The notes under the pieces were generated by a model. That model ran no database searches. It was not told the origin of the DNA and saw nothing but the letters and a program-made list of their open reading frames with translations. The position numbers and the translations under genes were made by a program. A stretch of 33,250 nucleotides of DNA, from assembly GCA_947259495.1 (NCBI GenBank), contig CAMYLV010000032.1:1-33250 (forward strand), in the 5' to 3' direction. The stretch is from an uncultured Desulfobacterales bacterium. GTDB taxonomy: Bacteria; Desulfobacterota; Desulfobacteria; Desulfobacterales; JAHEIW01. Shown here one piece after another: positions 5,976 to 32,889 of this stretch (position 1 is its first letter; each line of letters opens with the position of its first letter).

Positions 5976-6066
5976 GGAGTAATGGAGTGTTGGAGTAATG
6001 GATAAGAACGATTGACGTTTCAAATATTCTAACAATACTCCATTTCTCCTTTACTCCATCACTCCA
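5976..6066. repeat. Palindromic repeat C, copy 1 (GGAGTAATGGAGT family)
   Basis: The left arm (5976-6001) is a short run of GGAGTAATG-like units. The right arm (6037-6066) is its inverted counterpart, with about six differences over 28 bases. The arms flank roughly 35 AT-rich bases. A second member sits at 26372-26459. The copy lies in the 227-base gap between trmO and recD2, where I see no gene. Function unknown; likely a dispersed intergenic repeat. Confidence 0.65.
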
Positions 6067-6147
6067 AAGCGAAGCTTATACGCAAACGTTTTGGTAGGAC
6101 GTATTTTCCTCCTATTTTAAACAGCAACCCGAAAGTGGACGATATTA

Positions 6148-11832: not shown

Positions 11833-13185
11833 ATGAATCTATCAAACTTGGAAGCTATTTCACCGGTTGATGGCCGCTATCGACGGGCGGCTGCTGCCCT
11901 CGGAAAATATTTTTCAGAAGGGGCCTTAATTAACTATCGGGTGCAAATCGAGGTCGAATATTTTATTGCGCTGTGCCGTTTGCCGCTGCCCCCGCTCAAG
12001 GGGATCGGCCAAAAGGACTTTGCATCCCTGCGCAAGATTTATAAGGATTTCTCCCTTGACGATGCGACCCGGGTAAAGGATATCGAAAAAGTCACCAACC
12101 ACGACGTCAAAGCAGTTGAATACTTTTTAAAGGACAAGTTCGATGAGCTGGGTTTGGCAGCTTACAAGGAGTTTATCCACTTCGGATTGACTTCCCAGGA
12201 CATCAACAATACCGCTCTGCCGCTTTCCATCAAACAAGCCTATCTGGCGGTGCTCAAACCGGCGCTCGCTGAAGTTTGCGCATATCTTGAAAACAAAACC
12301 AGAGACTGGGCTGATATTCCCATGCTCGCGCGCACGCACGGCCAGCCGGCTTCACCCACCACCATTGGAAAGGAACTTTATGTGTTTGTTGATCGTTTGA
12401 CGGTTCAAACCGATCTGTTACAAACCATCCCTTTTTCAGCAAAATTCGGGGGAGCCACCGGCAATTTCAATGCCCACCAGGTGGCCTATCCAGATGTTGA
12501 TTGGATTGCATTTGCGAATCATTTGGTCAACAAAACGCTGGGCCTGACGCGCTCCCGCGTCACGACCCAGATTGATCATTATGACAATCTGGCCGCATTT
12601 TGCGATAATTTTAAGCGCATCAATACTATTCTAATCGACTTGACTCGCGATATATGGACCTATATTTCTTTCGATTATTTCAAACAGAAAATAAAAAAGG
12701 GAGAAGTCGGCTCATCGACCATGCCGCACAAGGTCAACCCCATTGATTTTGAAAACGCGGAAGGCAATTTAGGCGTTGCCAATGCCCTGTTCGAGCATCT
12801 GGCCGGAAAGCTTCCAATCTCAAGGCTGCAGCGGGATCTGACGGATTCAACCGTAACCCGCAATATCGGCGTTCCACTGGCTCATACGCTCATTGGATTA
12901 AAGTCGCTGATGCGGGGATTGAAAAAATTGATTATAAGTGCGGATGTCATCCGTGCGGATCTGCAACGAAACTGGGCGGTGGTGGCCGAAGCCATCCAGA
13001 CGATTCTGCGCCGGGAAGGCTATCCCCAGCCCTATGAAGCTTTAAAGGCGTTAACCCGCACCCATAAAATCATCGACCAGAAGGCCATTGCCGAGTTTAT
13101 TGCCTCTCTGGATGTTTCCCCGGCGGTTAAAGATGAATTGCTGGAAATTACTCCCGAAAACTATACGGGAATCATTGATTTTTAA
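11833..13185 (+). CDS. purB: Adenylosuccinate lyase
   Basis: This 450-residue enzyme of the fumarase/aspartase superfamily acts twice in purine synthesis: it splits SAICAR to AICAR and adenylosuccinate to AMP, releasing fumarate each time. It resembles the E. coli type, starting with LEAISPVDGRYR. The mobile signature loop GSSTMPHKVNP (residues 293-303) contains the catalytic serine S295, and THGQPASPTT holds the general-acid histidine at 169. Length matches the E. coli enzyme. It supplies AICAR for the transformylase encoded at 777, although the two are 10 kb apart. It is a single-gene unit with its own promoter, and its stop overlaps the stop of the convergent DUF3786-type gene by four bases (TTAA). 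Confidence 0.95.
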   Translation: MNLSNLEAISPVDGRYRRAAAALGKYFSEGALINYRVQIEVEYFIALCRLPLPPLKGIGQKDFASLRKIYKDFSLDDATRVKDIEKVTNHDVKAVEYFLKDKFDELGLAAYKEFIHFGLTSQDINNTALPLSIKQAYLAVLKPALAEVCAYLENKTRDWADIPMLARTHGQPASPTTIGKELYVFVDRLTVQTDLLQTIPFSAKFGGATGNFNAHQVAYPDVDWIAFANHLVNKTLGLTRSRVTTQIDHYDNLAAFCDNFKRINTILIDLTRDIWTYISFDYFKQKIKKGEVGSSTMPHKVNPIDFENAEGNLGVANALFEHLAGKLPISRLQRDLTDSTVTRNIGVPLAHTLIGLKSLMRGLKKLIISADVIRADLQRNWAVVAEAIQTILRREGYPQPYEALKALTRTHKIIDQKAIAEFIASLDVSPAVKDELLEITPENYTGIIDF

Positions 13186-14099
13186 CCGGTTGGTCCCTGC
13201 AACAGGGCAGTGGATACCCGGTTGACAAGCCCCCAGATGGCATCCGCAGAAAACACGGCTTCAATCGAGCGATCAAACAAAACCGAAATTCGGGGTTCAA
13301 ATTCTTTATCTCCCTGCCAGAATAAGAAATACAGCGGCACCCGTGGAAAGGGGAACAGTTCATAAGCCGCATCCGCCATGTCCACCGGGCGGCCCTCCAG
13401 AAACCGGGCGGCGTCTTCAAAGCCGCTTATGTCCTGTCCATAGCGCTGCAGCAAGGGATCTGTCTGCAAGATGTGCGGTCCCTGGAAAAAATGCGCTTCT
13501 TTGAGATCTTTGACACCCACAATTTCGCGACCCAGGGGGTGAAGTTTTTTGACATTATTCAGATAAATCACGGTTACCAGCTCAAGCAGCGGGTCCTGCG
13601 TTTTTTCCCAGCCCCTGCCGTTGTCGCGCTTCAGGCAGCCCTCCGCGACGTCCATTAGCACCTCTTCGTTTAAAAAATGAAACACCACCTGATGGGCAGA
13701 AACCAGCCTGAAAAGGGTCCAATTGCAAAGGGTGTTCAAGTCCTTCGATTGCAGCTCGTCCCAAAACTGGGAAGGCACTTCCACCGGGGATTTGTCGGGA
13801 GCAAACGCCGGCGGATTTTGTCGGCGGCGACGGTTCTGCATCTGAAGGTACCCGCGGCTAAACGGGTATGGGCCCTGCGAAAAATTGTCACAGGCAAATT
13901 GAGCGCAATCCCGCAGGCAGTATTCAACCCGGTTCAATTGCGCACATGCCAGAATGGCGCAGGTACCGCCCAATAACCGTTGTTGGGTCGCCAGCTTTTG
14001 TTCGGCCAGCGGGCTGGTACCCGGGCCGCAGCTTGAGCAGGTGCCCAGCAGATTTAATTTGCAGACATCACAGTTAATACCGCAGGCGCCGGTGGGCAT
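13182..14099 (-). CDS. Cysteine-rich (DUF3795-like) plus DUF3786 protein
   Basis: This 305-residue cytosolic protein has two parts. The first 70 residues hold ten cysteines (C6, C10, C13, C21, C24, C47, C52, C61, C65, C70). The opening CGxxCxxC-x7-CxxC spacing suggests Fe-S cluster or zinc binding, as in DUF3795-type domains. Residues 110-300 match the DUF3786 pattern, ending with FPRVPLYFLFWQGDKEFEPR and VLFDRSIEAVFSADAIWGL. DUF3786 proteins are found mainly in strict anaerobes and have no established function. The stop overlaps that of purB tail to tail, so each transcript is antisense to the other's end. No ribosome site stronger than GGAGG-like (GGGAGG upstream of the ATG) is needed to explain the start. 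I infer a redox or metal-linked role only. Confidence 0.75.
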   Translation of the reverse strand: MPTGACGINCDVCKLNLLGTCSSCGPGTSPLAEQKLATQQRLLGGTCAILACAQLNRVEYCLRDCAQFACDNFSQGPYPFSRGYLQMQNRRRRQNPPAFAPDKSPVEVPSQFWDELQSKDLNTLCNWTLFRLVSAHQVVFHFLNEEVLMDVAEGCLKRDNGRGWEKTQDPLLELVTVIYLNNVKKLHPLGREIVGVKDLKEAHFFQGPHILQTDPLLQRYGQDISGFEDAARFLEGRPVDMADAAYELFPFPRVPLYFLFWQGDKEFEPRISVLFDRSIEAVFSADAIWGLVNRVSTALLQGPTG

Positions 14100-21226: not shown

Positions 21227-22153
21227 GTGAGATTACTGACGCGATCGGATTTTGACGGCTCAGTGTGTACGGCAATTCTTGAAGAGCTGGGGCTTATCGA
21301 CGATATTCTTTATGTGCATCCCAAGGATATGCAGGATAACAAAATTGCCGTTACGGGCAACGATATTCTGGCAAATGTACCGTTTGTTGAAGGGTGTGGT
21401 TTATGGTTTGACCACCATTCCAGCGAGCATGAGCGTTTGCAGCTGGACGGCAAGTTTAAAGGCGCCAGCAAAAATGCGCCCAGTGCGGCTCAGGTCGTTT
21501 ACGATTACTACAAACAGAATAAAGCTTATGCGGCAAAGTTAAGCAAATTCAAAGAGCTGATTGAAATTGCCGGCAAAGCCGATTCGGCCAAATTTACGAA
21601 AGACGATATTCTTCATCCAGAGGGCTGGACGATGCTGGCATTCATTTCAGATCCGCGTACCGGTCTCGGTTATAAGCGCAGCTTTACCATCAGCAATTTT
21701 GAATTGATGAAGAAATTACCCCAATTACTGCGCACCCAAAAAGTCAATTACATTTTAAAACTCTCCGATTTCCAGGAACGGGTGAAGCTCTACCAGGAAG
21801 AAAATAAAAAATACGAGCAGCTGATCACCCGAACAGCCAGAATCAAGGGGGATGCAATCATTATCGACCTGCGGGATTGTCAGACTATCCCGGTCGGCAA
21901 CCGCTTTTTGGAATATGTTTTGTATCCCGAGCAGAATATATCCATACGGATCGTAGACGGCAAAAATAAGCAGTTTGCCATGATTTCGGTCGGGCACAGC
22001 ATCATTAACCCGACAGCAACAATCAATGTGGGCGCTTTAACCCTCAAATATGGCGGCGGCGGGCACAAAAGGGTCGGTACCTGTCAGGTCTCGTACGAAG
22101 CGGTCGACCGGGTGGTCGGCGAAATGCTTGATGTGATTAAGGCGTCCAAATAA
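21227..22153 (+). CDS. DHH/DHHA1 phosphoesterase (exopolyphosphatase/NrnA-like)
   Basis: This 308-residue cytosolic DHH-superfamily phosphoesterase has the Mn-binding motifs SDFDGS (D8, D10), FDHHSSE (D62, H63, H64) and the C-terminal DHHA1 motif GGGGHKR (276-282) that holds the substrate. Characterised relatives cleave polyphosphate, nanoRNA, pAp or cyclic dinucleotide products; the sequence alone does not decide between these. The start is GTG, preceded by GCGGGAG, and the N-terminus MRLLTRSDFDG fits the family with no missing residues. The leader is long and structured (element B plus tandem repeats), which hints at post-transcriptional control. The WbqC-like gene starts 63 bases downstream and may be co-transcribed. 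Confidence 0.85.
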   Translation: MRLLTRSDFDGSVCTAILEELGLIDDILYVHPKDMQDNKIAVTGNDILANVPFVEGCGLWFDHHSSEHERLQLDGKFKGASKNAPSAAQVVYDYYKQNKAYAAKLSKFKELIEIAGKADSAKFTKDDILHPEGWTMLAFISDPRTGLGYKRSFTISNFELMKKLPQLLRTQKVNYILKLSDFQERVKLYQEENKKYEQLITRTARIKGDAIIIDLRDCQTIPVGNRFLEYVLYPEQNISIRIVDGKNKQFAMISVGHSIINPTATINVGALTLKYGGGGHKRVGTCQVSYEAVDRVVGEMLDVIKASK

Positions 22154-22216: not shown

Positions 22217-22894
22217 ATGATTATATCCACCCACCAACCCTATTTCATCCCGTTTTCGGGTTTTTTTCACAAAGCCCGGCAATCTGATATTTTTGTCATT
22301 CTCGATACCGTGCAGTTTCCACGGGGCACCACATGGATCAGCCGTAATCGCTTAAAAAACGATCAGGGAATGTTATGGTTGACCGTTCCGGTCTGGAAAA
22401 AGGGTATGGGCCTGCAGCCCATCTGTGAAGTCAAGATCTGCCATGCATTTCGCTGGGTCGCCAAACATCTGGTCAGCCTAAAATCCGCTTATGCCAGAGC
22501 CCCCTATTTTACCGATCATATGCCCTTTATTGAAGATACGTATCGGGCTCGTTTTGAAAACCTCATTGATCTGAACATGACCTTCATTCATTATTTGTTT
22601 CGGCAGTTTAAAATCGATACCGAGATTAAATTGCTGTCGGAATTGGGCATTCGAGCAGCAGGCAATCAGTTGCTCGTTGATATCTGCCGGCAACTGGAGG
22701 CTTCAGTTTATCTGGCTCAGCCTGCGGCCGGAAGATATCTGGACAGCGAGTTGTTCCAAAAAGAAGGTCTTCAGATTCAGTTCATTAAACCACCTGCCTG
22801 CGTCTATCCACAGTTGTGGGGTCCTTTTATTGCCAACCTTTCGGTCTTTGACATGCTTTTCAACTGTGGTCCTAAGGCAAAGGACATATTTTGA
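22217..22894 (+). CDS. WbqC-like family protein
   Basis: This 225-residue cytosolic protein matches the WbqC-like family: ISTHQPYFIPFSGFFHKA at the start, DIFVILDTVQFPRG at about residues 29-42, and the C-terminal NLSVFDMLFNCGP. Members occur in polysaccharide or glycan clusters and are suspected to modify nucleotide sugars; no reaction is firmly established. Here it follows a DHH phosphoesterase by 63 bases and faces the glycosyltransferase-sulfatase end of the minus-strand operon, which is consistent with surface-glycan work but not proof. The start has no strong ribosome site. The gene is complete and of normal length. A 17-base perfect inverted repeat follows its stop. Confidence 0.85.
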   Translation: MIISTHQPYFIPFSGFFHKARQSDIFVILDTVQFPRGTTWISRNRLKNDQGMLWLTVPVWKKGMGLQPICEVKICHAFRWVAKHLVSLKSAYARAPYFTDHMPFIEDTYRARFENLIDLNMTFIHYLFRQFKIDTEIKLLSELGIRAAGNQLLVDICRQLEASVYLAQPAAGRYLDSELFQKEGLQIQFIKPPACVYPQLWGPFIANLSVFDMLFNCGPKAKDIF

Positions 22895-23125: not shown

Positions 23126-24808
23126 CTAATGAGTGCTGAAGGCCTTCAGAAAGCCTGGCAGGAAAGTTTCCATCCCGGGATGGGGGGGCATCTGTCTGGG
23201 AATCAGACCGGGTGTGTAACCGTTGTTTTCAAACGGCTCCAGGAGCCGTTTGTTGCGGCTAATGACATGAATCGGAACCGACCAGGTGCTATCCGGGCCG
23301 GTGATCTGTACATTGGGCTGGTGATCGCCCATAATAATAATCAGCGTATCATCTTTAAGATACTGCTCGATAAAGCTTTTGAGCACGGTTAACTCGTATA
23401 TAATGGCGGTGACGTAGGCTTTGGCCGCATTTGCCAAATCCGGCCAGACAACCGGAAAGGTAACGGTCTCTTTTTGATGGTAGATACTGCCGTCGCCAAT
23501 TTGTGACCAGTCTTCCAGATATGGCGGTTGGCGGTTAAAAGGGGCATGGCTGCTGATGAGGACAATCTCGATAAATAGCGGCTGCCTGCTGGGTAAGATC
23601 TCTTTGCGATAAATATATTCAAGAACATATTGATCGGGCATCGGTGACCAGCCAAACTTTGGACCCGTATATTCAAAATCCCGCGCGAAATAGTGTTTTT
23701 GATAGCCGAAAAATTTGCCCTGGGGCCAGGGCAAGTCGTTGGCCGGCATAACGCTGACGGTCCGGTATCCGGCCCGCTTAAATATGGGCGCAATGGTGGT
23801 CGCATTTGAGGTGATCAGCAGGTCATAGAACAACTGGTCGGAAAGATTGACACCGCTGGCAATGGTGCCGTGAGCCAGCCATGAGCTGCCGCCGAAAGCA
23901 GGCGATTTTAAAAAACCGGAGCGCACCGTAAAACCCCGATCCGCTAAATCCTGTTCATACTGCGTCAGCACCGGCAAAATGAAATGGAAGTGGCGATTAT
24001 CGTCAAATATCGTCTTCCCGTAAGATTCGATGAAAATGATATACACATCTGCACCGCCAAGTTTATCTAATGCCGAAGGCGTTTGTTCGAGTTCAGCAGA
24101 CCTTTGGCGGATGGCCTGTAAGTTTTGGGTTCGGTAGCCGCGAACATGTAAAAGAAAATCGATTTCTGCGACGATTCGATGATAAAATGCGGGATGGAAT
24201 ATAGGTAACGGGCGGGTGTGCGCCGCACTAAACAGCAGCTGGATTGACAAAACGGCAACGATCACAGCGGCAATGATACGCACTTTTCGCAGCCTGGTGA
24301 GCGTTTGATGGATGGTTTTTACTGACCACCAAACGCCGGCGGTGATGGCGGCAATCAAGAAAAGACCCAGGGCACTATTGATAAAAAACGTTTTCAAAGG
24401 CAGCGTTTTATAAAGCAGTCGGATCAAAACCGGCAGAAACTGCGCGTCTATGTAGAGATTAAATGGGCGGAAAAAATACATGGGCACCAGTTCATCTGCG
24501 CTGCGGAACAGGCGTAAAAACATGAACAGCAGCGTTAGCATTAACAAGAACCCGCGGTCAAATGGCAACTTCAGCCAAGTGGCGATGCAAAGGGCCCCAA
24601 TGATCAATAAAACTTCAGGTGAAACCAGCAGCGGCAACCATAGCGGTTCTTGGGGGGCGGGATAACGCAAGTTGAGCAGCACATTCAAGAAGCCCCAGGC
24701 CAGTGAAAACGCAATGACGGTTTTGAGCGTCCGCAGTCCCCCGCAAAAAGCCAAAAGATTGCCAATGGTCTTTTCCGATTCTTTTTGCTTTGATTCTGCC
24801 AGATTCAT
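23126..24808 (-). CDS. Membrane sulfatase-fold (LtaS/EptA-like) phosphotransferase or hydrolase
   Basis: This 560-residue protein has about five hydrophobic segments in residues 25-195 (for example LLLIIGALCIATW and FLLMLTLLFMFLRLF) followed by an extracytoplasmic alkaline-phosphatase/sulfatase-fold domain from about 250. Likely metal residues are Glu261 (FIESYG), His421 (SSHAPF), and Asp495-His496 (MGDHQP). The nucleophile is in GGSSWLAHGT (S308/S309). The architecture is that of lipoteichoic-acid synthase or phosphoethanolamine transferase, which move phosphate-linked head groups between lipids and glycans; a true sulfatase is less likely. It overlaps the glycosyltransferase stop by ATGA and has no own ribosome site, so it is translationally coupled as the last gene of the minus-strand operon. 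Substrate unknown. Confidence 0.8.
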   Translation of the reverse strand: MNLAESKQKESEKTIGNLLAFCGGLRTLKTVIAFSLAWGFLNVLLNLRYPAPQEPLWLPLLVSPEVLLIIGALCIATWLKLPFDRGFLLMLTLLFMFLRLFRSADELVPMYFFRPFNLYIDAQFLPVLIRLLYKTLPLKTFFINSALGLFLIAAITAGVWWSVKTIHQTLTRLRKVRIIAAVIVAVLSIQLLFSAAHTRPLPIFHPAFYHRIVAEIDFLLHVRGYRTQNLQAIRQRSAELEQTPSALDKLGGADVYIIFIESYGKTIFDDNRHFHFILPVLTQYEQDLADRGFTVRSGFLKSPAFGGSSWLAHGTIASGVNLSDQLFYDLLITSNATTIAPIFKRAGYRTVSVMPANDLPWPQGKFFGYQKHYFARDFEYTGPKFGWSPMPDQYVLEYIYRKEILPSRQPLFIEIVLISSHAPFNRQPPYLEDWSQIGDGSIYHQKETVTFPVVWPDLANAAKAYVTAIIYELTVLKSFIEQYLKDDTLIIIMGDHQPNVQITGPDSTWSVPIHVISRNKRLLEPFENNGYTPGLIPRQMPPHPGMETFLPGFLKAFSTH

Positions 24809-25920
24809 AACGAGCTGCTTTGCAGGTTCGATTCCTGCCGCTGTTTTCGTAAATTTGTCAAAAAGTGATGGATGGAATCCATTGTATTGGCCCAGCCGGG
24901 TCTTGCGAGGGATGTCTGCAGCGCGGCCTCACTGAGACTGAGCAGATGATTTCGGTTCTTGTGCAGATCTAAAATAATGGCGGCACACGTTTTCGTTTCA
25001 CCGACCGGGATCAAAAAGCCGTTAACGCCGTTGCCAATAAATTCCCTTACCGCGCCGGCTGCCGAGGCCAGGACCGGCAATCCATAAGCCTGGGCCTCGA
25101 GACAGGCGATACCGAAGCCTTCATTGGAATATGGCATGACAAACAACTGGCTATCGGCCAAAATCTTTATGAGCTCCCGGCCGTCGAGCGGTCCCATCAA
25201 GCGCACCTGCTCGCCGATATGATTGGCCGAAATCATGCGCTTGATCCTGCGGACGTGATCGGGATCCATCCGGAGGCTTCCCACAACCGTCAACCGCCAG
25301 ATGTCTGGCGGCAACCGTATCAGGCTTTCAATCAGCGGCATCAGGCCTTTGATGGGTGTGATGTTGCCGACAAACACCAGCTCCAAAGGGCCTGTCCGCC
25401 GGGCTCTGGCCTTAATTTTTTCGGGTGTTGGCAAATGACCCAAGCGGTCTGCTCCCGGGTTGGCCACGATTGAAGGGTGGCTAAAATTGATCAAGCGCTG
25501 CACATGGCTGCGGGTCGTTTCACTGTTGAAGATAAAGGCATCAACGTTGGTCAGGTAGATCTTTTCAACGGTCTTAAAAAGATGATGGGTCCCGTATTTG
25601 CGGGGCTGACTGGAAAGCACCTGGTGCACAATGGAGACGATCGGAACGCCATTGTGTTTTTGGTGTTGATGATTGAGCCAAAAAAGGGAAGGATGGTTGA
25701 GTTCATCCTGTAAGATGAGATCATAGGTTTTGCGGGTAAGCTTGGATCTGAGTTCCGGTGAGAAATTATCCAACAGCAGCCTGCCGTAACGCCGCCAGGG
25801 AAGAGAAACAATGTCAACTGTATGCCCTTTTCGGCGCAAATGCCGCACCAGAAATTTATCATATAGGAAACCGCCGGTCAGGGTATCCAGGCTGCCGTAT
25901 ATCATCAGGCACAAGCGCAT
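24805..25920 (-). CDS. GT4-family glycosyltransferase
   Basis: This 371-residue GT-B fold retaining glycosyltransferase belongs to group 1. The nucleotide-sugar domain contains LVFVGNITPIKGL (182-193) and the E-x7-E motif from E267 to E275 (EGFGIACLE), both typical of GT4. The N-terminal acceptor domain is complete (residues 1-160, with the GG of LTGGFLYD), and there is no signal or membrane helix, so it works at the cytosolic face. It starts through a TAATG overlap with the PTPS-like gene and ends in an ATGA overlap with the membrane sulfatase-fold gene, so all three are translationally coupled. GT4 enzymes in other bacteria include tetrahydrobiopterin glucosyltransferases and lipid glycosyltransferases; acceptor and sugar are not determinable here. 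Confidence 0.88.
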   Translation of the reverse strand: MRLCLMIYGSLDTLTGGFLYDKFLVRHLRRKGHTVDIVSLPWRRYGRLLLDNFSPELRSKLTRKTYDLILQDELNHPSLFWLNHQHQKHNGVPIVSIVHQVLSSQPRKYGTHHLFKTVEKIYLTNVDAFIFNSETTRSHVQRLINFSHPSIVANPGADRLGHLPTPEKIKARARRTGPLELVFVGNITPIKGLMPLIESLIRLPPDIWRLTVVGSLRMDPDHVRRIKRMISANHIGEQVRLMGPLDGRELIKILADSQLFVMPYSNEGFGIACLEAQAYGLPVLASAAGAVREFIGNGVNGFLIPVGETKTCAAIILDLHKNRNHLLSLSEAALQTSLARPGWANTMDSIHHFLTNLRKQRQESNLQSSSL

Positions 25921-26297
25921 TATAAATCTTTCGTGTAGGCAGCCCAGGCGATGTCATTTTCCCAGATCGTGACCGTCATCGATTTTAAATTCGACGATTT
26001 GAGTTGCTCCGAGATGGATTGCCAGATAATTCTGGCAAAATGCTCCAGGCTCGGATTCAACCCCTCAAACACCGCCAAACGGTTAAGGGTCATATCCCGG
26101 TAAAGCTCAACAAGTGCATCCAGAGCGGTTTCAATTTCACAAATGTCAACCAGATATCCGTGACGATCCAATTCCGGCCCGTCAAACCGGGTTTCGACAA
26201 CATAATGATGGGCATGGGTCTCATTTTCCGGTCCCCAGTCACCGCCCGTTAAAAAATGGTTTGCAATAAAATTGCGGCGCACAGCTACGGAATACAT
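25920..26297 (-). CDS. PTPS/QueD-family protein with Glu in place of catalytic Cys (PTPS-III-like)
   Basis: This 125-residue T-fold protein belongs to the 6-pyruvoyl-tetrahydropterin synthase/6-carboxytetrahydropterin synthase family. Zinc ligands are His14 (ANH) and His28/His30 (THAHHY, usual HGH). The catalytic cysteine should be four residues before His28; that position is Glu24 in GPENETH. In Plasmodium PTPS and bacterial PTPS-III proteins a glutamate there is known to redirect dihydroneopterin triphosphate to 6-hydroxymethyl-dihydropterin, replacing FolB. So this is unlikely to be a QueD for queuosine. The conserved DxxxL segment (LVDICEIETAL, 49-59) and the C-terminal glutamate (IWEND) are present. 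An AAGGGGG site precedes the ATG. It is fifth in the seven-gene minus-strand run. Confidence 0.8.
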   Translation of the reverse strand: MYSVAVRRNFIANHFLTGGDWGPENETHAHHYVVETRFDGPELDRHGYLVDICEIETALDALVELYRDMTLNRLAVFEGLNPSLEHFARIIWQSISEQLKSSNLKSMTVTIWENDIAWAAYTKDL

Positions 26298-26371
26298 GCA
26301 ACACCCCCTTAGAGTTTGAACATTAATTTCAGGCTACCTTATCAGGAATCCGTCGGTGTAAAATCAGATAT

Positions 26372-26459
26372 TGGAGTAATGGAGTACTGGTAAATACGAA
26401 GAGCTGGCAAACAGCAACCTCATAAAAAATACCATTACTCCAGCACTCCAACACTCCGG
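26372..26459. repeat. Palindromic repeat C, copy 2, inside the operon
   Basis: Left arm TTGGAGTAATGGAGTACTGG (ending 26390) and the inverted right arm at 26432-26459 share the GGAGTAATGG units of copy 1. It sits in the 195-base gap between the ICMT-like gene and the PTPS-like gene, the only wide gap in the operon. No terminator T tract is seen. Confidence 0.6.
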
Positions 26460-26492
26460 CCAAACATTGCCAATTTGAGTATATTTTGGCTT

Positions 26493-27176
26493 CTATGAAT
26501 TTTTAGATACCTGCGATTTGACGACCGTTTGAATTTTCGGCAAATACTTTCCAACGCTATTTTTGTACTGAAGATAATCATTGCTGAAGGTCTTCTCCAG
26601 ATAAGCCTCTTCCATTTTGATGCGGTAATGGGAGTTCAGCAGAAAGATGATCAATCCGATGAGCATGGCCACAGACGGTCGCGCCAGCACAAACCCGGCA
26701 ATAATCGTCGCCAGGCCCAAAGTGATGGGATTTCTGACGGTGCGATAGATCCCTGCAGTGTACAAGCGGGTTGTTTCGCCAAATTCGTGAAAGCTGACAT
26801 GCGACCGCAGGGTGGCAACGGCAATATATGTCAGGCTGTTTCCCAGCAACAGCAGGCCTGCGCTGAAAATGGAAAGGCCACCAGATGGCGGCATATTATT
26901 CAACGGCAAAAGATAGCGGTTCATTTCGGGAAATAGTACCGTCAGCAACGGAATCATCGAGGCGGTCAAGACTGCCATTGTGGCGCCGGCGGCGCCGATC
27001 ATTTTCGGTGTGGAATGCATGACGGCCGTGGCCGGATGGCGTTTCGAAGATGTTGATTTGCGCTTCAGGTTAAACAGCATTTTACCGGTGGATCCGGCGC
27101 TGGGTACCGCATAAAAGCAGATCTGGTAAATTTGGGCGACATAGGTTGCGATAATGAGATAGTCTAACCAGTGCAT
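26493..27176 (-). CDS. ICMT/PEMT-like membrane methyltransferase family protein
   Basis: This roughly 227-residue integral membrane protein has about five hydrophobic segments. The C-terminal half carries the isoprenylcysteine-carboxyl-methyltransferase/phospholipid-methyltransferase pattern: LYTAGIYRTVRNPITLG, then a hydrophobic hairpin, then RIKMEEAYLEKTFSNDYLQY and KYLP at the end. This is the SAM-binding region of the family (usual RHPxY in place of RNPIT). The N-terminal third is more divergent and includes a basic stretch (LKRKSTSSKRHP). Start choice is weak: ATG 27176 has only GGAT upstream, and an in-frame TTG at 27188 is an alternative. In the operon it may O- or N-methylate a lipid-associated product. 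The family call is moderate; the acceptor is unknown. Confidence 0.7.
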   Translation of the reverse strand: MHWLDYLIIATYVAQIYQICFYAVPSAGSTGKMLFNLKRKSTSSKRHPATAVMHSTPKMIGAAGATMAVLTASMIPLLTVLFPEMNRYLLPLNNMPPSGGLSIFSAGLLLLGNSLTYIAVATLRSHVSFHEFGETTRLYTAGIYRTVRNPITLGLATIIAGFVLARPSVAMLIGLIIFLLNSHYRIKMEEAYLEKTFSNDYLQYKNSVGKYLPKIQTVVKSQVSKNS

Positions 27177-27237
27177 ACGTTTATCCAAGCTATCAATTGT
27201 AGCGGTTGTTTTATCAGGTGCCAGGGATCAATAGGTG

Positions 27238-28284
27238 TTACATCTGTGAACCCGACTCCCCATATGTGAAAATAACCTGAATGGCCTCCTGCGGGTTTTT
27301 ATCCAACAATTCATAGGCCTCCTTTGCCCGGCTGAGGGGATATTGATGGGTGATAAATTGCGCCGGTTTCAGCTTCCGAATCATTTCCCAAGCTATATTT
27401 AGTCGCCTATTTTTTGTCCAGCGTCCTGAAAATTCCGGGGACAAGGTGCTGACCTGGCTGCTGATCAGCCGAATGCGGTTGCGATGAAATCGTCCGCCCA
27501 GGTCCAGACTCGCCGCCTGGCTACCGTACCAGGAACCGAGCACTATGCGTGCGCCGAAACCGGCAATCTGGATTGCCTGGTTCAAGGCCTGCGGGTTGCC
27601 CGACAGTTCATACACTAAATCCGCCGGGCCGGCTGCGGGGTTGTTGGCGTCCGCTCCAGCCGAAGCAGCCATAAACGCTGGGTCTTTGGGATCCAATGCG
27701 CTGTCGGCACCCACCTCCAAAGACGCCCGGCGTCGTGCCGCATAGCGGTCGAAGGTGACCAGTTGATGCAAAGGAAATTGTGCCAGCAAGGCCGTTGTGA
27801 GCAGACCCACAATACCCTGTCCGAAAATAAACACGCTCTCACCGATAATCGGCCGTCCATCCATCAGGAAATTAACAGCCGTTTCCATATTGGGCAAAAA
27901 GAGCGCTTCCTTCAGGTCCATTTCTTCGGGAATCACCATAATTTCTTTTAGCTTCGCCGTGAAATGGCTTTCATGGGGATGAAAACTGAAGATCTGCCGC
28001 CCCAGCCAATTTTGATCTACGCGCGAACCCACTGCAACCACTTCACCAACAGACCCATAGCCGTATTTGAGCGGATACCGAAAAGGTTTTGAAAGGGATT
28101 TAATGGTCGTATCGGCCGGCAACCCGGGGGGAATTTGACCTCGATACACCCGTAATTCGGATCCCGCACTGATGGCCGAAAACGTCGTTTTAATGAGCAC
28201 CTCCTGGGCCTTGGGCGCCGGCAAGGCTTCTTCTCTCAAAGCGACCGCGTGAGGTTTCTCAAATATGATCGCTGTGCGCTTCAT
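27238..28284 (-). CDS. MDR-superfamily dehydrogenase without zinc-ligand cysteines
   Basis: This 348-residue protein has the two domains of medium-chain alcohol dehydrogenases: a GroES-like catalytic part (1-145) with YGYGSVGEVVAVG, and a Rossmann part with GQGIVG at 155-160. The usual catalytic-zinc Cys in the G-I-C-G-T-D segment is replaced by SAISAGSELRVYRG (36-49), and the four-Cys structural-zinc lobe is absent, so it is either zinc-free or uses other ligands (FHPHESH, 101-107). It is probably an NAD(P)H-dependent reductase or dehydrogenase of an oxygenated side chain. I chose the ATG at 28284, with GGAAGG upstream; it overlaps the stop of the RibD-like gene by ATGA. A TTG at 28311 is a less likely start. 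Confidence 0.82.
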   Translation of the reverse strand: MKRTAIIFEKPHAVALREEALPAPKAQEVLIKTTFSAISAGSELRVYRGQIPPGLPADTTIKSLSKPFRYPLKYGYGSVGEVVAVGSRVDQNWLGRQIFSFHPHESHFTAKLKEIMVIPEEMDLKEALFLPNMETAVNFLMDGRPIIGESVFIFGQGIVGLLTTALLAQFPLHQLVTFDRYAARRRASLEVGADSALDPKDPAFMAASAGADANNPAAGPADLVYELSGNPQALNQAIQIAGFGARIVLGSWYGSQAASLDLGGRFHRNRIRLISSQVSTLSPEFSGRWTKNRRLNIAWEMIRKLKPAQFITHQYPLSRAKEAYELLDKNPQEAIQVIFTYGESGSQM

Positions 28285-29114
28285 GTAACCTTCCACCCCG
28301 GGCGGGCCCAAACAATGATATCATTGCCCAAATGTTGATAGTGAACCTGCTCACAGTCCAGATATTGAGCAGCTTCAAGCCCCCTGGAATTCAGGACCTG
28401 CAATCCGCCGACCAGTTTGGGGGCAATCGTAATAATAAACAGATCCACCAGCTTTGAATTTACGAAGCTGGTGATCACCTGGGCACCGCCTTCTACCATA
28501 AGACTGTTAATATTCATTGCGGCCAGCAGGTCCATTAACGCCAAAAGATCGATTTTGCCGTTAGTACCGGTCGCACACGTCAACGGTTTTGCACCGGCTT
28601 CTTCAAGCACCCGTATTTTTGGGATGGAATCGGTTTTCCCGTTGATGATCCAGGAGTTCACATCATTTCTTTGAACACATTTCGCATTGAGGGGGGTTCG
28701 CAGGTGGGTATCCAGAATAATGGGTTGCGGGTTTTTACCGTCAACCCTTCTGGCAGACAGCTGCGGGTCGTCGGCTAAAACCGTGCCAATGCCAATTAAA
28801 ATGGCATCACAGCAGGCGCGGATTTGATGGGTCAGCTCCCATGATTTCGGTCCGCTCAAAACAAGGGGCTCTCTTTTACGCGAGGCGATACTGCCATCGA
28901 TACTCTGGGCGTAACTCACCGTTATAAACGGACGGTGATATTTGGCGCGGAACTGCGCGGCGTAATGCAGCTGCGTTTTCAGATCCTCGATCGACTGGAT
29001 GCGCATATCGGCATAATTTTCAACGACGTTGTCTGCTTGTGCAAAAGCGCCGGCGTTAGGTTTGCGTCCAGCTTTTGATGCATTGTTGGATGACACCATT
29101 TCCCTCCAAATCAT
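28281..29114 (-). CDS. RibD C-terminal-domain (DHFR-like) reductase
   Basis: This protein, up to 277 residues, contains only the reductase half of RibD, a dihydrofolate-reductase-like fold that reduces a pyrimidine or pterin-type ring with NADPH. Landmarks are RPFITVSYAQSIDGSIA (61-77), GIGTVLADDPQLSAR (108-122) and LMVEGGAQVITSF (205-217). The N-terminal deaminase domain of RibD, with its HAE and PCxxxG zinc motifs, is absent. In this position a stand-alone reductase could act on pterin precursors as well as on riboflavin intermediates. The first roughly 37 residues are poorly conserved in appearance, and the start is uncertain (ATG 29114, ATG 29099, or GTG 29096, which best fits the GGAGGG site). 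Its stop overlaps the dehydrogenase start by four bases. Confidence 0.82.
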   Translation of the reverse strand: MIWREMVSSNNASKAGRKPNAGAFAQADNVVENYADMRIQSIEDLKTQLHYAAQFRAKYHRPFITVSYAQSIDGSIASRKREPLVLSGPKSWELTHQIRACCDAILIGIGTVLADDPQLSARRVDGKNPQPIILDTHLRTPLNAKCVQRNDVNSWIINGKTDSIPKIRVLEEAGAKPLTCATGTNGKIDLLALMDLLAAMNINSLMVEGGAQVITSFVNSKLVDLFIITIAPKLVGGLQVLNSRGLEAAQYLDCEQVHYQHLGNDIIVWARPGWKVT

Positions 29115-29153
29115 TGGCCCCCAGCGTTCTATAGAGGGCTGCCGTATAAAAAC

Positions 29154-30410
29154 CTAACTGCGACTTTCACCCTGCCGCTCTAAAAACAGCTTGTCTTCCG
29201 GTTGCCATATTGACCGCATGCCTGAGCCGGTCAGCATCAGGGTCAGCGCGCATGACAGCAGGAGAAAAAGACTAAACGGTGAATTCCATCCCGTCAGGGA
29301 GCCGGCCACCAATAGACTGATCAGCAAAGCGGCGCTGCGGGCCATGCAACCCAAAGCAATCAATAAGCCGGCTGCCGCAAGCATTGGCAGCGCCGGCAGA
29401 TCAAACGGCATAGAAGCATTCAGCAGGGCAACAGTAACGCTCTGTTTGCCCGTGGCATGCGCGGCAGTGGCATCGTAAAAGAAAGAGATGATGACTGCGC
29501 TGATGATAAAACGCAAATAAACCGGAAATAGTTTTGTTAACCCAAAACCCAGATGGCGATCCCAGCGTGCTTGCTGAAGATGGTTAACATGAACATAACC
29601 ACTGACCACCAGTGCATCTCTGAGAAATCCGGCCAGAAGCGGTATCATGAAAATGGTGGCTGCAATCGTCATCACCGGTCGGGAAAACATCGGAAGCAGG
29701 GCCATTGACACCAGGCCCATCTGAAACCCGGCAATCATTCTTTTAGCCGGATGTGGTTTTAGACTTACAATCGGCTTGTTATTTTTCTTTCGATGCCAGA
29801 TACCGAATTGAAAAAGATAATAGGCTAGGCTGACGCTGATATAATAAATGGGCAGCCGCTCATACCCGACCGCCAAAATGGGCGCCACCAACAGGCCCAA
29901 GGCGTCGATTTTGGTATCGAGCCATTCGCCCAAACGGGTTTCAGACCGCGTGACTCTGGCAAGGTATCCATCAACGTAATCCATCAGGGCCGCGATAAGA
30001 TAAATGGCGCCGGGTACCCAGATCAGCCAGTTGGACCCTGTCGCAGAAGGCGGAGGCGTTTGAAATAGAAATCCGCCCAGGGCGCCGATTAAAAAGCCAC
30101 GTACAATGGTCAGCCAGTTGGCATAACCCAACTCGGGTTGCAAAACGGCGTTCTGCGGGGAATGGTTTTTCCCAAGGGCGGTCCACAACAGCCACAGCAC
30201 ATAAGCGTTGATGGCGGTCGCTTGCAGCAGCCATTGGAAAGCCGAAAGCGGCTGCCAGGCGAAATAAAGACAGCTAAAGCAGCCCATGATAATGAGCAGA
30301 CAAACCAAACACGCTGTCCACCAGGCATTTTGCAGACAGCCCTGGAGGGCCCCATCTTTATGGGCGCAACGCTGATTTATGAATTCTGATCTGAGCATAC
30401 TCGTTTTCAC
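29154..30410 (-). CDS. CDP-alcohol phosphatidyltransferase, long form
   Basis: This membrane enzyme of about 418 residues carries the full CDP-alcohol phosphotransferase signature at D144-x2-D147-G-x2-A-R-x8-G-x3-D165-x3-D169. It transfers a phosphatidyl or similar phospho group from a CDP-activated donor to an alcohol. About ten hydrophobic segments span the chain, so it is twice the usual length of roughly 200 residues: an N-terminal pair of helices and C-terminal helices (280-400) flank the core. The start is uncertain: GTG at 30410 or ATG at 30398, neither with a clear ribosome site. A 14-base segment in the N-terminal coding part equals the arm of element A. It is first in the minus-strand operon, so the product may be membrane-linked. 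Confidence 0.83.
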   Translation of the reverse strand: MKTSMLRSEFINQRCAHKDGALQGCLQNAWWTACLVCLLIIMGCFSCLYFAWQPLSAFQWLLQATAINAYVLWLLWTALGKNHSPQNAVLQPELGYANWLTIVRGFLIGALGGFLFQTPPPSATGSNWLIWVPGAIYLIAALMDYVDGYLARVTRSETRLGEWLDTKIDALGLLVAPILAVGYERLPIYYISVSLAYYLFQFGIWHRKKNNKPIVSLKPHPAKRMIAGFQMGLVSMALLPMFSRPVMTIAATIFMIPLLAGFLRDALVVSGYVHVNHLQQARWDRHLGFGLTKLFPVYLRFIISAVIISFFYDATAAHATGKQSVTVALLNASMPFDLPALPMLAAAGLLIALGCMARSAALLISLLVAGSLTGWNSPFSLFLLLSCALTLMLTGSGMRSIWQPEDKLFLERQGESRS

Positions 30411-30823: not shown

Positions 30824-31402
30824 ATGAAGGCAATTGACATCTTGACCCGCGAACATGGCCTGATTCTCCGGGCCCTGGAAGTCCTTTCTCAAGCAAAAAA
30901 ACAAATCGAAAAAAATCAACCACCCCCGAAGGCGTTTTTTGACAAAGCGCTGGTATTTTTGAGAGGGTTTGCCGATCAATTTCATCACTTCAAAGAAGAG
31001 TATTTGATGTTTGGTCTTCTGGCGCTCAAAAAAGGGGATGCATTCGACGGCCCCATCGGTGGCCTCAGATTCCAGCATGAAAGATGCAGAGCATGTATCG
31101 ACGGAATTTCAAATTCCCTTACTGGCTATGCTGACGGGGATGATATCGCCACCACAACCCTGCTGGAAAACCTGGCGGCCTATATTTCGTTGTTGCGAAG
31201 GCACATTTATGAAGAGGACCACACGTTTTTTAAAATGGTAGAAAAAGAACTTTCGCGGGAAGAAGAAGATATACTTTTGATGCAATTTAATAAAGAAGAT
31301 GAAAAGATGGGAGATCAAAACTTTTATGATCAAAATCGTCAACGGGTCGATGAAATGGAGACCTATCTCAGACGCGAAGATACGGATGGCCGAAGGTTAT
31401 GA
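30824..31402 (+). CDS. Hemerythrin-domain (HHE) protein
   Basis: This 192-residue cytosolic four-helix HHE protein should bind a di-iron centre and sense or store O2, NO or iron. Candidate ligands are His11 (REHG), His54/His55 with Glu59 (FHHFKEE), His85 (FQHER) and His127 with Glu131 and His133 (RRHIYEEDH). A polar helical tail follows residue 145. The ATG at 30824 has GGAAGG upstream and begins exactly at the domain. Longer in-frame starts at 30689 would add sequence unlike the family. The stop overlaps the kinase start by ATGA, so hemerythrin and kinase are made together, which suggests hemerythrin supplies a gas or redox input to the kinase. An FNR-like box lies upstream. Confidence 0.85.
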   Translation: MKAIDILTREHGLILRALEVLSQAKKQIEKNQPPPKAFFDKALVFLRGFADQFHHFKEEYLMFGLLALKKGDAFDGPIGGLRFQHERCRACIDGISNSLTGYADGDDIATTTLLENLAAYISLLRRHIYEEDHTFFKMVEKELSREEEDILLMQFNKEDEKMGDQNFYDQNRQRVDEMETYLRREDTDGRRL

Positions 31403-32889
31403 AAAGACAAAATTGTTGGGAATATATGAAATGCGGCCGTCAGCCGGGGGGGCACAAGGTCTTTGATTTGGGTGTGTGCCCGGCGGCTGAGGATAACTCC
31501 TATGACGGGATCAATCGCGGCAAGAATGCCGGTCGTTTTTGCTGGGCGGTGGCCGGCACGTTTTGTGGCGGAATGGTTCAGGGCACATTTGCCGACAAGC
31601 GTCCATCATGTCTGAGCTGCCCGTTTTTCAGCAAGGTGCGGGCTGAAGAAGGCACGGCCAACTTGCGAACCAAATTCCTGCGCTTCATTTCCGAAGACGC
31701 CGACGGGCCTGTTTTAAGCAACATGCGCTACACTCAAATACGGGCCGGCAAAAGATTTATCACTCAGGGACAGGCTGCAGATGCGGCCTATATCATCCAG
31801 AGAGGCACCTGTCAGCTGGTTGTGGAAAAAGACGGTGATCTGCACCCCGTGGATCATCGCGGTGAGGGCGATATTGTCGGCGTGATGGCTATTTTGACCG
31901 GTGAACCCCGCCGCGCCCATGTCGAAGCCGAAACTGATATGGAAGTATGGGTGCTAAACCGCGACCAATTTGAGCATGTATCCAGCGAACAACCCGGACT
32001 TTTGGATTTTTTGACCGAACTGGTGGCCGATCGGTTTGACTCCAGAAGACCGATTGCCGACCGTTCGATCGGAAAATATGTCGCCACAGACATCATCGGG
32101 CGCGGCGGATTCAGCATTATCTACAAGGGGATGCATCCGGAGCTAAATACGCCCGTGGCCATTAAAATGCTGAGGCACCATCTGGCCATGGATCCTGATT
32201 TTCTGCGCAATTTTCAAAATGAGGCCAAAACCATTGCAGGTTTAAACCATGCAAACATCATCAAGGTTTACGACATTGAAGAGCGCTTTAAGACCGTTTT
32301 TTTAATCATGCAATTCATTGCCGGCGAATCCTTAAGCGTAAAACTCGAGCGCTTGAAAGCCATATCGCCGAGTGCAGCGGTCCACTATTCAATTCAAATC
32401 TGTTCCGGCCTACGATATGCCCATCATCACGGGATTATCCACCGTGATATCAATGCGTCAAACATCATCATCCAGCCAGATGAACACTTAAAGATTTTAG
32501 ACTTTGGACTTGCCTGTCCGATCGGCACCCGGGATTTCAGTTCCCTGGGTACCCTGGCTTATATGGCTCCCGAACAGATTAACGGGGATCTGATGGATCC
32601 GCGTACGGACATCTATGCTGTGGGGATTACGGCCTACGAAATGCTGGTGGGCAAAAGGCCTTTTGATGCGGGCGATCCCCGCAGGCTGGAGGATATGGTC
32701 CTGCAGCGAGACATCCCGGATCCCATCCAAAGTGTCCCGGACCTGCCCAAAGACCTTCAACATTTCATCATCAAATCCTGCCGGCGCGATCCAAATCTGC
32801 GCTATGACAACATAAAACAGGCCCTGGCCGATTTAAAACGTCTTGCCACGAAACTGGGGATAGCTTCTGAAAATACAGCGGCCCTCTAG
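31399..32889 (+). CDS. Two-CW + cNMP-binding + Ser/Thr protein kinase fusion
   Basis: This 496-residue soluble protein has three domains. Residues 1-82 form a cysteine-rich two-CW domain (C6-W7, C12, C27, C48-W49, C56, C71, C74), which probably binds metal or an Fe-S cluster. Residues 110-215 form a CRP-type cyclic-nucleotide-binding beta-roll (GDIVGVMAILTGEPRRAHV as phosphate cassette, lacking the usual Gly-Glu). Residues 224-480 form a Hanks-type kinase: IGRGGFSIIYKG, K256 (VAIK), E275, HRD at 348-350, N355, DFG at 368-370, APE at 390-392. The catalytic loop reads HRDINASN, lacking the usual lysine two residues after Asp. There are no membrane segments. It is coupled to hemerythrin by ATGA. 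It probably phosphorylates targets in response to redox, gas or nucleotide signals. Confidence 0.88.
   Translation: MKRQNCWEYMKCGRQPGGHKVFDLGVCPAAEDNSYDGINRGKNAGRFCWAVAGTFCGGMVQGTFADKRPSCLSCPFFSKVRAEEGTANLRTKFLRFISEDADGPVLSNMRYTQIRAGKRFITQGQAADAAYIIQRGTCQLVVEKDGDLHPVDHRGEGDIVGVMAILTGEPRRAHVEAETDMEVWVLNRDQFEHVSSEQPGLLDFLTELVADRFDSRRPIADRSIGKYVATDIIGRGGFSIIYKGMHPELNTPVAIKMLRHHLAMDPDFLRNFQNEAKTIAGLNHANIIKVYDIEERFKTVFLIMQFIAGESLSVKLERLKAISPSAAVHYSIQICSGLRYAHHHGIIHRDINASNIIIQPDEHLKILDFGLACPIGTRDFSSLGTLAYMAPEQINGDLMDPRTDIYAVGITAYEMLVGKRPFDAGDPRRLEDMVLQRDIPDPIQSVPDLPKDLQHFIIKSCRRDPNLRYDNIKQALADLKRLATKLGIASENTAAL

Follow-up and report, generated by a model that had tools for sequence, protein, structure and literature searches.

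Gene content and organization of the operon

We analyzed a 33,250-nucleotide (nt) stretch of DNA from an uncultured Desulfobacterales bacterium (assembly GCA_947259495.1, contig CAMYLV010000032.1, positions 1 to 33,250; hereafter the window), in which seven open reading frames (ORFs), all on the minus strand, tile the interval from 30410 down to 23126. Based on the window ORFs and Pfam searches, their order from 30410 to 23126 is CDP-alcohol phosphatidyltransferase (CDP-AP), RibD_C reductase, MDR dehydrogenase, PEMT-type methyltransferase, PTPS-like protein, GT4 glycosyltransferase and LtaS/EptA-like membrane protein. The features, with protein lengths in amino acids (aa), are as follows:

29154..30410, minus strand: CDP-AP, 418 aa, GTG start, extra C-terminal region; PF01066 3.4e-16, residues 97-254; motif DYVDGYLARVTRSETRLGEWLDTKID
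28281..29114, minus strand: RibD_C-only reductase, 277 aa; PF01872 6.4e-44
27238..28284, minus strand: MDR dehydrogenase, 348 aa from ATG 28284; PF00107 (ADH_zinc_N) 1.9e-8
26493..27188, minus strand: PEMT/ICMT-type membrane methyltransferase, 231 aa, TTG start; PF04191 2.8e-11
26371..26451, no strand: interspersed palindromic repeat in the PEMT-PTPS spacer, a genome-wide element
25920..26297, minus strand: PTPS-like T-fold protein, 125 aa; PF01242 2.2e-24
24805..25920, minus strand: GT4 glycosyltransferase, 371 aa; PF00534 (Glycos_transf_1) 8.6e-30
23126..24808, minus strand: membrane-anchored LtaS/EptA-superfamily protein, 560 aa; PF00884 (Sulfatase) 1.9e-10

Three gene pairs overlap, namely RibD_C and MDR (ATGA, 28284-28281), PTPS and GT4 (TAATG, 25922-25918), and GT4 and the Sulfatase-fold gene (ATGA, 24808-24805). 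MDR most likely starts at ATG 28284 and not at the TTG (28311) given in the ORF list. An earlier note, made from the sequence of the window, had described a seven-gene minus-strand operon with this order and these overlaps, which the ORFs, Pfam matches and sequence confirmed; its protein families were also recovered by Pfam, apart from the label "ICMT-like", for which PEMT-type is the better name (PEMT, 2.8e-11; ICMT, 4e-4, under cut-off).

Conservation and distribution of the cluster

A scan using the MDR alignment returned 355 loci, a figure that counts loci encoding an MDR relative and not clusters, and the best 80 were kept, so the sample leans toward near kin. Together with the window and the loci of six relatives these came to 87, of which 84 were on distinct contigs after L057, L116 and L122 had been dropped as duplicates of L050, L053 and L054 (residue statistics still include the three). 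Since the loci were picked by MDR alone, the other genes are an independent outcome; many contigs stop near the cluster, such that gene absences are upper bounds.

RibD_C was present in 76 of the 84 loci, PTPS in 74, GT4 in 70, an S-adenosylmethionine (SAM) methyltransferase in 44, RibA in 42 and CDP-AP in 41, followed by the flippase-like LPG_synthase_TM (30), a small membrane protein (24), the LtaS/EptA-like protein (18), a PlsC-like family (8) and PEMT (5). Where both partners were present, RibD_C and MDR were on the same strand in 76/76 loci, MDR and PTPS in 74/74, and PTPS and GT4 in 64/68. The neighborhood search that had been proposed as a check supports the view that RibD_C, MDR, PTPS and GT4 belong together.

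Two further genomes of the genus had all seven genes in an unchanged order (L049 and L050; 64-86% identity). Four genomes that are more distant, but still of the same order, had matches at the locus to all of the genes except PEMT, and two of these four, of family f17, had an added LPG_synthase_TM gene and a soluble SAM methyltransferase. According to record titles and tree labels, the bacterial carriers belong to Chloroflexota, Thermodesulfobacteriota, Pseudomonadota, Acidobacteriota (a locus without PTPS), Binatota, WOR-3 (Caldifarciminota) and perhaps Myxococcota, and the archaeal carriers to Bathyarchaeota, Methanomassiliicoccaceae and haloarchaea. The tree labels were taken from record names, and the labeling of a "Deltaproteobacteria bacterium" as Myxococcota is perhaps a naming artifact. 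Additional haloarchaea, as well as Streptomyces, were found via plasmids. With carriers among archaea and six or seven phyla of bacteria, the cluster is not a local accident; nor is the operon a product of chance, because the seven-gene order is kept in L049 and L050 and the core recurs in other phyla. The recurrence of the core also supports the earlier proposal of a conserved pathway that has no assignment.

GTP cyclohydrolases and the entry to the pathway

RibA (GTP cyclohydrolase II) was encoded in half of the loci (42/84; in L059, for example, PF00925 matched at 5e-67), comprising 36 of the 44 Chloroflexota loci, which were assigned by hand from record titles, and six of the 40 others. 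RibA and RibD_C formed one ORF in 21 of these 42 loci, RibA lay no more than 300 nt upstream in 20, and the two were apart in one (L119). The RibA-RibD_C fusions suggest that RibD_C acts on the RibA product, and their presence in 21/84 loci is in keeping with the predicted reduction by RibD_C of that product, 2,5-diamino-6-ribosylamino-4(3H)-pyrimidinone 5'-phosphate (DARPP).

In Haladaptatus, a GTP cyclohydrolase III gene lies directly before MDR (7.6e-87), and one is annotated at the same place, beside MDR, in Haloarcula sp. GH36. No GTP cyclohydrolase is listed for the H. marismortui pNG700 stretch (L140), which has a creatininase-family gene approximately 5 kb before MDR; PTPS is matched there by two separate pieces without annotation and is perhaps a broken gene. 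In Sinorhizobium, the formyl group of the GTP cyclohydrolase III product is removed by the creatininase-family enzyme BrbF, which likewise yields DARPP (PMC9478397). Three lineages appear to reach DARPP by different enzymes. The cluster RibA proteins carried Tyr in 40 of 42 cases, with two missed by the motif, and the RibA of Streptomyces fungicidicus, next to which lies a creatininase-family gene, has Met at that place; Met-type RibA presumably makes a formylated intermediate.

No GTP cyclohydrolase was found in the cluster of the window, and the one RibA match of the genome is on contig C13, outside the window. By analogy, the cluster presumably shares this housekeeping RibA. The earlier observation that no GTP cyclohydrolase lies alongside is correct for this branch, but not for the many relatives that have RibA (in half of them fused to RibD_C) or GTP cyclohydrolase III. 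Because relatives carry these enzymes of the riboflavin branch, the pathway appears to begin from a diversion of early riboflavin synthesis rather than from dihydroneopterin triphosphate.

Riboflavin, folate and queuosine housekeeping genes

RibD_C and PTPS families serve riboflavin, folate or queuosine synthesis, and the cluster genes could be ordinary paralogues that back up one of these pathways. We searched 13 Chloroflexota genomes, chosen by us from the 44 Chloroflexota loci, with completeness unstated and one of them (L068) holding MDR alone. RibA was found in 12, RibH (lumazine synthase) in one and RibE (riboflavin synthase) in none; of 14 control genomes, 11 were positive in the RibE search, as were the genome of the window and two relatives, and all 14 were positive in the RibH search. 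Each of the 12 genomes with RibA had a match inside the cluster ORF, which was the sole copy in 11. FolE was present in all three cluster-bearing Chloroflexota genomes checked. Among other carriers, Pseudohongiella (G208) and Haladaptatus (G206) have RibH, the former with three RibA matches.

The genome of the window and six cluster-bearing relatives each have one RibA, one RibH, one FolE2 and no FolE; RibE was found in all three checked (the genome of the window and two relatives), and in the genome of the window RibH and RibE are at another locus. That genome thus has its own RibD, RibA, RibH, RibE and FolE2, as well as a second, QueD-like PTPS whose motif, CENMHGH, combines those of PTPS-I and PTPS-III. 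We reconstructed a tree from 74 cluster RibD_C rows (>180 aa) and housekeeping rows from 20 of the 24 loci L009-L032, all from the order of the window, in which the cluster proteins were separate from housekeeping RibD (support 100/98), with L119 on a very long branch and a bootstrap that had not settled.

The clusters resemble the early riboflavin pathway (RibA and RibD; in archaea GTP cyclohydrolase III, ArfB and a reductase) in having RibA or GTP cyclohydrolase III, RibD_C and, in Streptomyces, a creatininase-family gene. Unlike that pathway, the cluster RibD_C has no deaminase domain and is followed by MDR, PTPS and GT4, and, unlike in riboflavin biosynthesis, RibE was missing in 13/13 and RibH in 12/13 of the Chloroflexota genomes searched. 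From general knowledge, GT4, CDP-AP and LtaS/EptA-like proteins have no place in riboflavin, folate or queuosine synthesis. The absence of RibE, and of RibH in all but one, from the 13 Chloroflexota genomes searched, together with the separate housekeeping copies in the genome of the window, disfavors an ordinary role in these pathways, which the earlier note had named as the outcome that would overturn its proposal, and we consider such paralogues a very improbable explanation.

RibD_C and MDR proteins

The RibD_C protein of the window scored 150.6 bits, against 129.6 for the archaeal equivalog profile, under the cut-off of that profile (186.45), and no other Pfam family, hence no deaminase, was matched in it. 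Because RibD_C comes without a deaminase domain, the product should, like pterins, retain the 2-amino group.

The MDR protein of the window contains no cysteine. All but one of 87 rows have A, P or S at position 40, the exception being a gap, and the GH[E] place reads GY in 86 of 87 rows and GH in the other. With these columns taken, as we assume, to be the zinc-ligand places, the residues indicate an MDR without the usual catalytic-zinc ligands, and the protein does not qualify as a zinc-dependent alcohol dehydrogenase. Its best curated profiles were PRK10083 (1.8e-21; 76.5 bits vs a cut-off of 376) and BchC, bacteriochlorophyllide dehydrogenase (1.1e-20; 74 bits vs 291). BchC is likewise an MDR and matched residues 12-334, but as its score was far below cut-off and it was not the top model we rejected this identity; with PRK10083 slightly higher, neither profile names the enzyme. 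Solved relatives of MDR include polyol and ketose dehydrogenases.

Active-site changes in the PTPS-like protein

The PTPS-like protein of the window belongs to the PTPS superfamily (86.2 bits vs the PF01242 cut-off of 22.4; TM 0.91 to 3d7j), and its model (pLDDT 95.7) had SCO6650 as the best PDB match by both fold and sequence. Across 79 rows, H14 was conserved in 78/79, H28 in 75/78, H30 in 78/78, E24 in 77/78 and E113 in 76/76, while position 69 was His in 2/78 and Lys, Gln or Arg in 65/78. Given the roles that we take these positions to have (zinc histidines, catalytic Cys and His places), the alignment indicates that the zinc histidines are kept, that Glu replaces the catalytic Cys, and that the catalytic His is replaced.

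The pattern ExxxHxH was found in 71 of 74 cluster PTPS, the remaining three having Asn for the first His, and most read ExxxH[SA]H (ENETHAH in the window). As members of the PTPS family (COG0720), these proteins share the T-fold and zinc histidines with PTPS-I (QueD), PTPS-II and PTPS-III, but differ in that motif, the published ones being CxxxHGH, CxxxxxHGH and ExxHGH, respectively, in the cited section of the source (PMC5041015). Among 77 cluster homologues (three from duplicate contigs), none had the PTPS-I, the PTPS-II or the PTPS-III motif, and the first and last of these were likewise not found in six plasmid proteins. Assignment to PTPS-III was rejected, since Glu is one residue further from His than in the published motif and HGH is mostly H[SA]H. 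PTPS-V, of unclear function and given no motif in the same section (PMC5041015), is a possible identity of the cluster proteins. Given the lack of all three motifs, an enzyme with one of the three known PTPS activities is not supported. In plasmid records such cluster genes are nevertheless annotated as 6-carboxytetrahydropterin synthase (QueD).

The loss of these motifs bears on whether a pteridine ring is made at all. The same GTP cyclohydrolase II and RibD_C entry, to which the same evidence applies, could lead to a (ribityl)aminopyrimidine that is glycosylated and perhaps lipid-bound, with PTPS having acquired a new non-pterin activity, as the 77 homologues without a known motif would allow. 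The PTPS fold, three zinc histidines and terminal Glu are retained, however, and the pocket of known PTPS members binds pterins. Vicine and convicine, in turn, are pyrimidine glycosides. We regard the aminopyrimidine alternative as possible but doubtful. It has a parallel in faba bean, where the synthesis of vicine and convicine is reported to start in the riboflavin branch, through a bifunctional riboflavin protein (PMC12202586).

Relationship to the Streptomyces SCO6650-type cluster

Plasmid p1 of S. fungicidicus (L141) encodes CDP-AP, MDR, PTPS, GT4, a SAM methyltransferase, LPG_synthase_TM, a creatininase and the Met-type RibA. MDR, PTPS and GT4 stand in the order MDR-PTPS-GT4 here and, close together and co-oriented, as MDR-PEMT-PTPS-GT4 (all minus) in the window, with matches of 35% over 290 aa for MDR, 28% for PTPS and 30% over 256 for GT4. 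CDP-AP is also shared with the window, and the flippase-like gene and SAM methyltransferase with relatives of the window. Unlike the window, the Streptomyces cluster has the Met-type RibA and creatininase and no annotated RibD_C, and both the Glu and the second His of the HxH pair are missing from its PTPS.

By eye, the L141 PTPS is nearly the same as SCO6650 (PDB 3d7j) and evidently its orthologue. SCO6650 is said to be without zinc and without PTPS activity, and SCO6655 reportedly makes only the formylated intermediate; to our knowledge, the product of the Streptomyces cluster is likewise not known. SCO6655 is named as a GTP cyclohydrolase II (PMC2853524). In L141, four genes separate PTPS from RibA, a spacing that would agree with the SCO6650/SCO6655 numbering.

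The partly known SCO6650/SCO6655 type of S. coelicolor therefore belongs to the cluster family, and with a PDB structure available for SCO6650 the term "undescribed" was too strong. We recognized no paper on the cluster in the open-licence literature, which is weak evidence as subscription papers were mostly outside its scope. What appears to be new is the cross-domain breadth, the RibA-RibD_C fusion without riboflavin synthase (in the Chloroflexota searched), the distinct motif of PTPS, and the association with genes for lipid headgroups.

Glycosyl, methyl and membrane genes

The motif DxxDGxxAR-x(7-11)-GxxxDxxxD was found in 38 of 44 cluster CDP-AP homologues, that of the window included, which identifies them as CDP-alcohol phosphotransferases. 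The LtaS/EptA-like protein had no PDB sequence match at 0.001. Its model (pLDDT 82.5) combines a membrane domain with an alkaline-phosphatase-fold domain, as in the LtaS/EptA superfamily, and in a VIA-align comparison that covered the best 1000 chains from Foldseek it matched LtaS over 283 residues (Z 21.2, 4.3 A) as well as full-length EptA (Z 18.9) and MCR-1 (Z 19.7). E261, S309, H421, D495 and H496 were invariant in 13 aligned proteins. The protein is like the LtaS/EptA phospho-headgroup transferases in its membrane helices and alkaline-phosphatase-type domain; unlike them, it has an invariant Ser at 309, and its identity to the LtaS and EptA-type rows is low (8-17%). S309 would lie near the usual place of the Thr nucleophile if these residues are equivalent to those of LtaS. 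The protein is presumably a phospho-headgroup transferase. It was encoded in 18 of the 40 non-Chloroflexota loci vs none of the 44 Chloroflexota loci.

PEMT (5 loci) and the SAM methyltransferase (44 loci) never co-occurred in the 84 loci, nor was the PlsC-like family (8 loci; one member checked, PF01553 2.2e-6) ever found with CDP-AP (41 loci). Both pairs look like like-for-like swaps, with small numbers and cut contigs. CDP-AP and LPG_synthase_TM were on one strand in all 28 loci with both, and 17 of the 18 LtaS/EptA-like loci also held CDP-AP. CDP-AP, the flippase-like gene and the LtaS/EptA-like gene suggest membrane attachment. Glycosylation, methylation and membrane placement of the product, as anticipated in the earlier note, were judged plausible.

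Two other explanations concern these membrane genes. The final product may be soluble (a cofactor, signal or antibiotic), with the membrane genes serving export or a neighboring envelope function; CDP-AP was not found in 43/84 loci and the LtaS/EptA-like gene in 66/84, some of which cut contigs explain. The single-strand pairing of CDP-AP with the flippase-like gene, the company of CDP-AP at nearly all LtaS/EptA-like loci, and the PlsC-like family in eight loci, none with CDP-AP, speak against this, and we consider a soluble product rather unlikely. Alternatively, the cluster could be one for an envelope polymer or headgroup, with the pterin-type genes as passengers, as a likeness of CDP-AP, GT4 and the LtaS/EptA-like gene to teichoic-acid or headgroup systems may suggest; yet RibD_C, MDR, PTPS and GT4 are steady and the envelope genes variable, although the MDR-picked sample favors such a pattern for MDR itself. 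To an envelope cluster with passengers we give next to no credence.

A YceI gene is inside the L123 cluster (L123:8497-9108), with relatives near two others (L084:3836-4429 and L133:15229-15969). Six YceI matches were found in a scan of 70 neighbor ORFs, a largely hand-picked set (68 picked by hand from 123, plus L104:7285-7875 and L084:3836-4429, noticed beforehand) that gives no unbiased count. A cytochrome b gene was also seen within the Thiodictyon cluster (L139). YceI and cytochrome b are possible redox partners of a lipid product.

Spacers, repeats and flanking genes

Spacers within the operon measure 39 nt (CDP-AP/RibD_C), 49 nt (MDR/PEMT) and 195 nt (PEMT/PTPS). Because the last contains an interspersed repeat, PTPS could have its own transcript. 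Elements like GGAGTGNTGGAGTANTGG occur as oppositely oriented pairs at 5982-6067 and 26371-26451 of the window, with 29 matches in the genome at no more than one mismatch vs none for the reversed pattern; this is an interspersed palindromic repeat and probably not part of the pathway. A repeat search of the PEMT-PTPS spacer returned no hairpin, yet the genome-wide element sits there. Scans for promoters and terminators gave numbers close to those of shuffled sequence (12 vs 9.3, sd 2.7, and 16 vs 9.8, sd 3.4) and were not used.

A WbqC-family gene (22217-22894, plus strand; 5.1e-68) and, upstream of it, an ORF without a Pfam match (21227-22153, plus strand) are convergent with the operon, and both also adjoin the cluster in L049 and L050, judged by starts. 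Elsewhere in the window are a cyclic-nucleotide-binding domain fused to a Ser/Thr protein kinase (31399-32889, plus strand), after a hemerythrin gene, and a DUF3786 protein with a Cys-rich N-terminus (13182-14099, minus strand). Two consecutive ORFs at 5-691 and 777-2027 (plus strand) look like two halves of PurH.

Proposed pathway

We put about even weight on the reading that the operon is the Desulfobacterales branch of a widespread pathway diverting the product of the first riboflavin step to a glycosylated, methylated and probably membrane-linked pterin-type compound. GTP would be converted to DARPP by GTP cyclohydrolase II, here presumably the single housekeeping RibA, and RibD_C, with no deaminase, would then reduce the ribosyl to a ribityl chain with the 2-amino group retained. 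The zinc-less MDR may oxidize a side-chain hydroxyl. If this were at C2', we infer that the ketone and the 5-amino group would condense to a 7,8-dihydropterin, at the level of dihydroneopterin monophosphate, with no GTP cyclohydrolase I. The PTPS-like protein, with Glu for Cys, would work on the dihydropterin side chain, GT4 would add a sugar, and methylation would be by the PEMT type here and the SAM type elsewhere. Finally, CDP-AP would link the product to a lipid phosphate and, where present, the LtaS/EptA-like enzyme may handle the phospho-headgroup outside the membrane. If the ring did not close, the product would be an aminopyrimidine glycoside; the entry step is the same for both. The comparisons show a module of conserved linkage, its tie in relatives to a GTP cyclohydrolase of the riboflavin branch, the altered active site of PTPS and the LtaS/EptA fold, whereas the use of RibA by the window, the chemistry from RibD_C onward and the lipid link are inferred.

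Several observations weigh against the pterin-type pathway as drawn. In half of the loci, among them that of the window, the examined stretch contains no RibA, such that the RibA step is by analogy here, and no deformylase is annotated in the Haloarcula sp. GH36 stretch, for which the gene table is incomplete. RibD_C was missing in 8/84 loci, two of which (L094 and L135) start less than 250 nt from MDR, and it is not annotated in the Streptomyces or GH36 stretches, again with incomplete gene tables; the reduction step may not be universal. Reduction by RibD_C followed by re-oxidation is chemically roundabout. The PTPS of SCO6650, S. fungicidicus and Thiodictyon have neither the Glu nor the HxH pair, and the loss of Cys and His might leave a binding role only. 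With CDP-AP in 41/84 and the LtaS/EptA-like gene in 18/84 loci, lipid attachment may be a lineage option. The MDR gene itself is patchy, occurring in only 24 of 395 genomes of the phylum of the window; L068 has MDR with no other cluster gene, and two Streptomyces plasmids (L138 and L142) have a SCO6650-like PTPS with no other cluster gene annotated nearby, which argues against strict linkage.

The interpretation in the earlier note is thus partly supported: a conserved and linked pathway is upheld, relatives do carry a GTP cyclohydrolase, PTPS has none of the motifs of the three known activities, and the claim of being undescribed goes too far. More tentatively, the cluster may specify a widespread and so far unrecognized class of membrane-anchored reduced pterins, with glycosylated, methylated headgroups placed on a phospholipid. 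Their route, independent of GTP cyclohydrolase I, would run through GTP cyclohydrolase II or III, reduction by RibD_C, oxidation of the ribityl chain by MDR, spontaneous closure to a dihydropterin and a Glu-type PTPS. Chloroflexota, Desulfobacterales and some archaea, as well as Streptomyces in a variant form, would use such pterins in the membrane as redox or light-active cofactors; we doubt that all of this will hold jointly.

The comparison ties the orphan Streptomyces protein SCO6650 to a cross-domain pathway with a proposed start, so that its product can be sought. If true, closure of the pterin ring on a riboflavin intermediate would add a second route to pterins, and a lipid-linked product would be a new kind of membrane cofactor.

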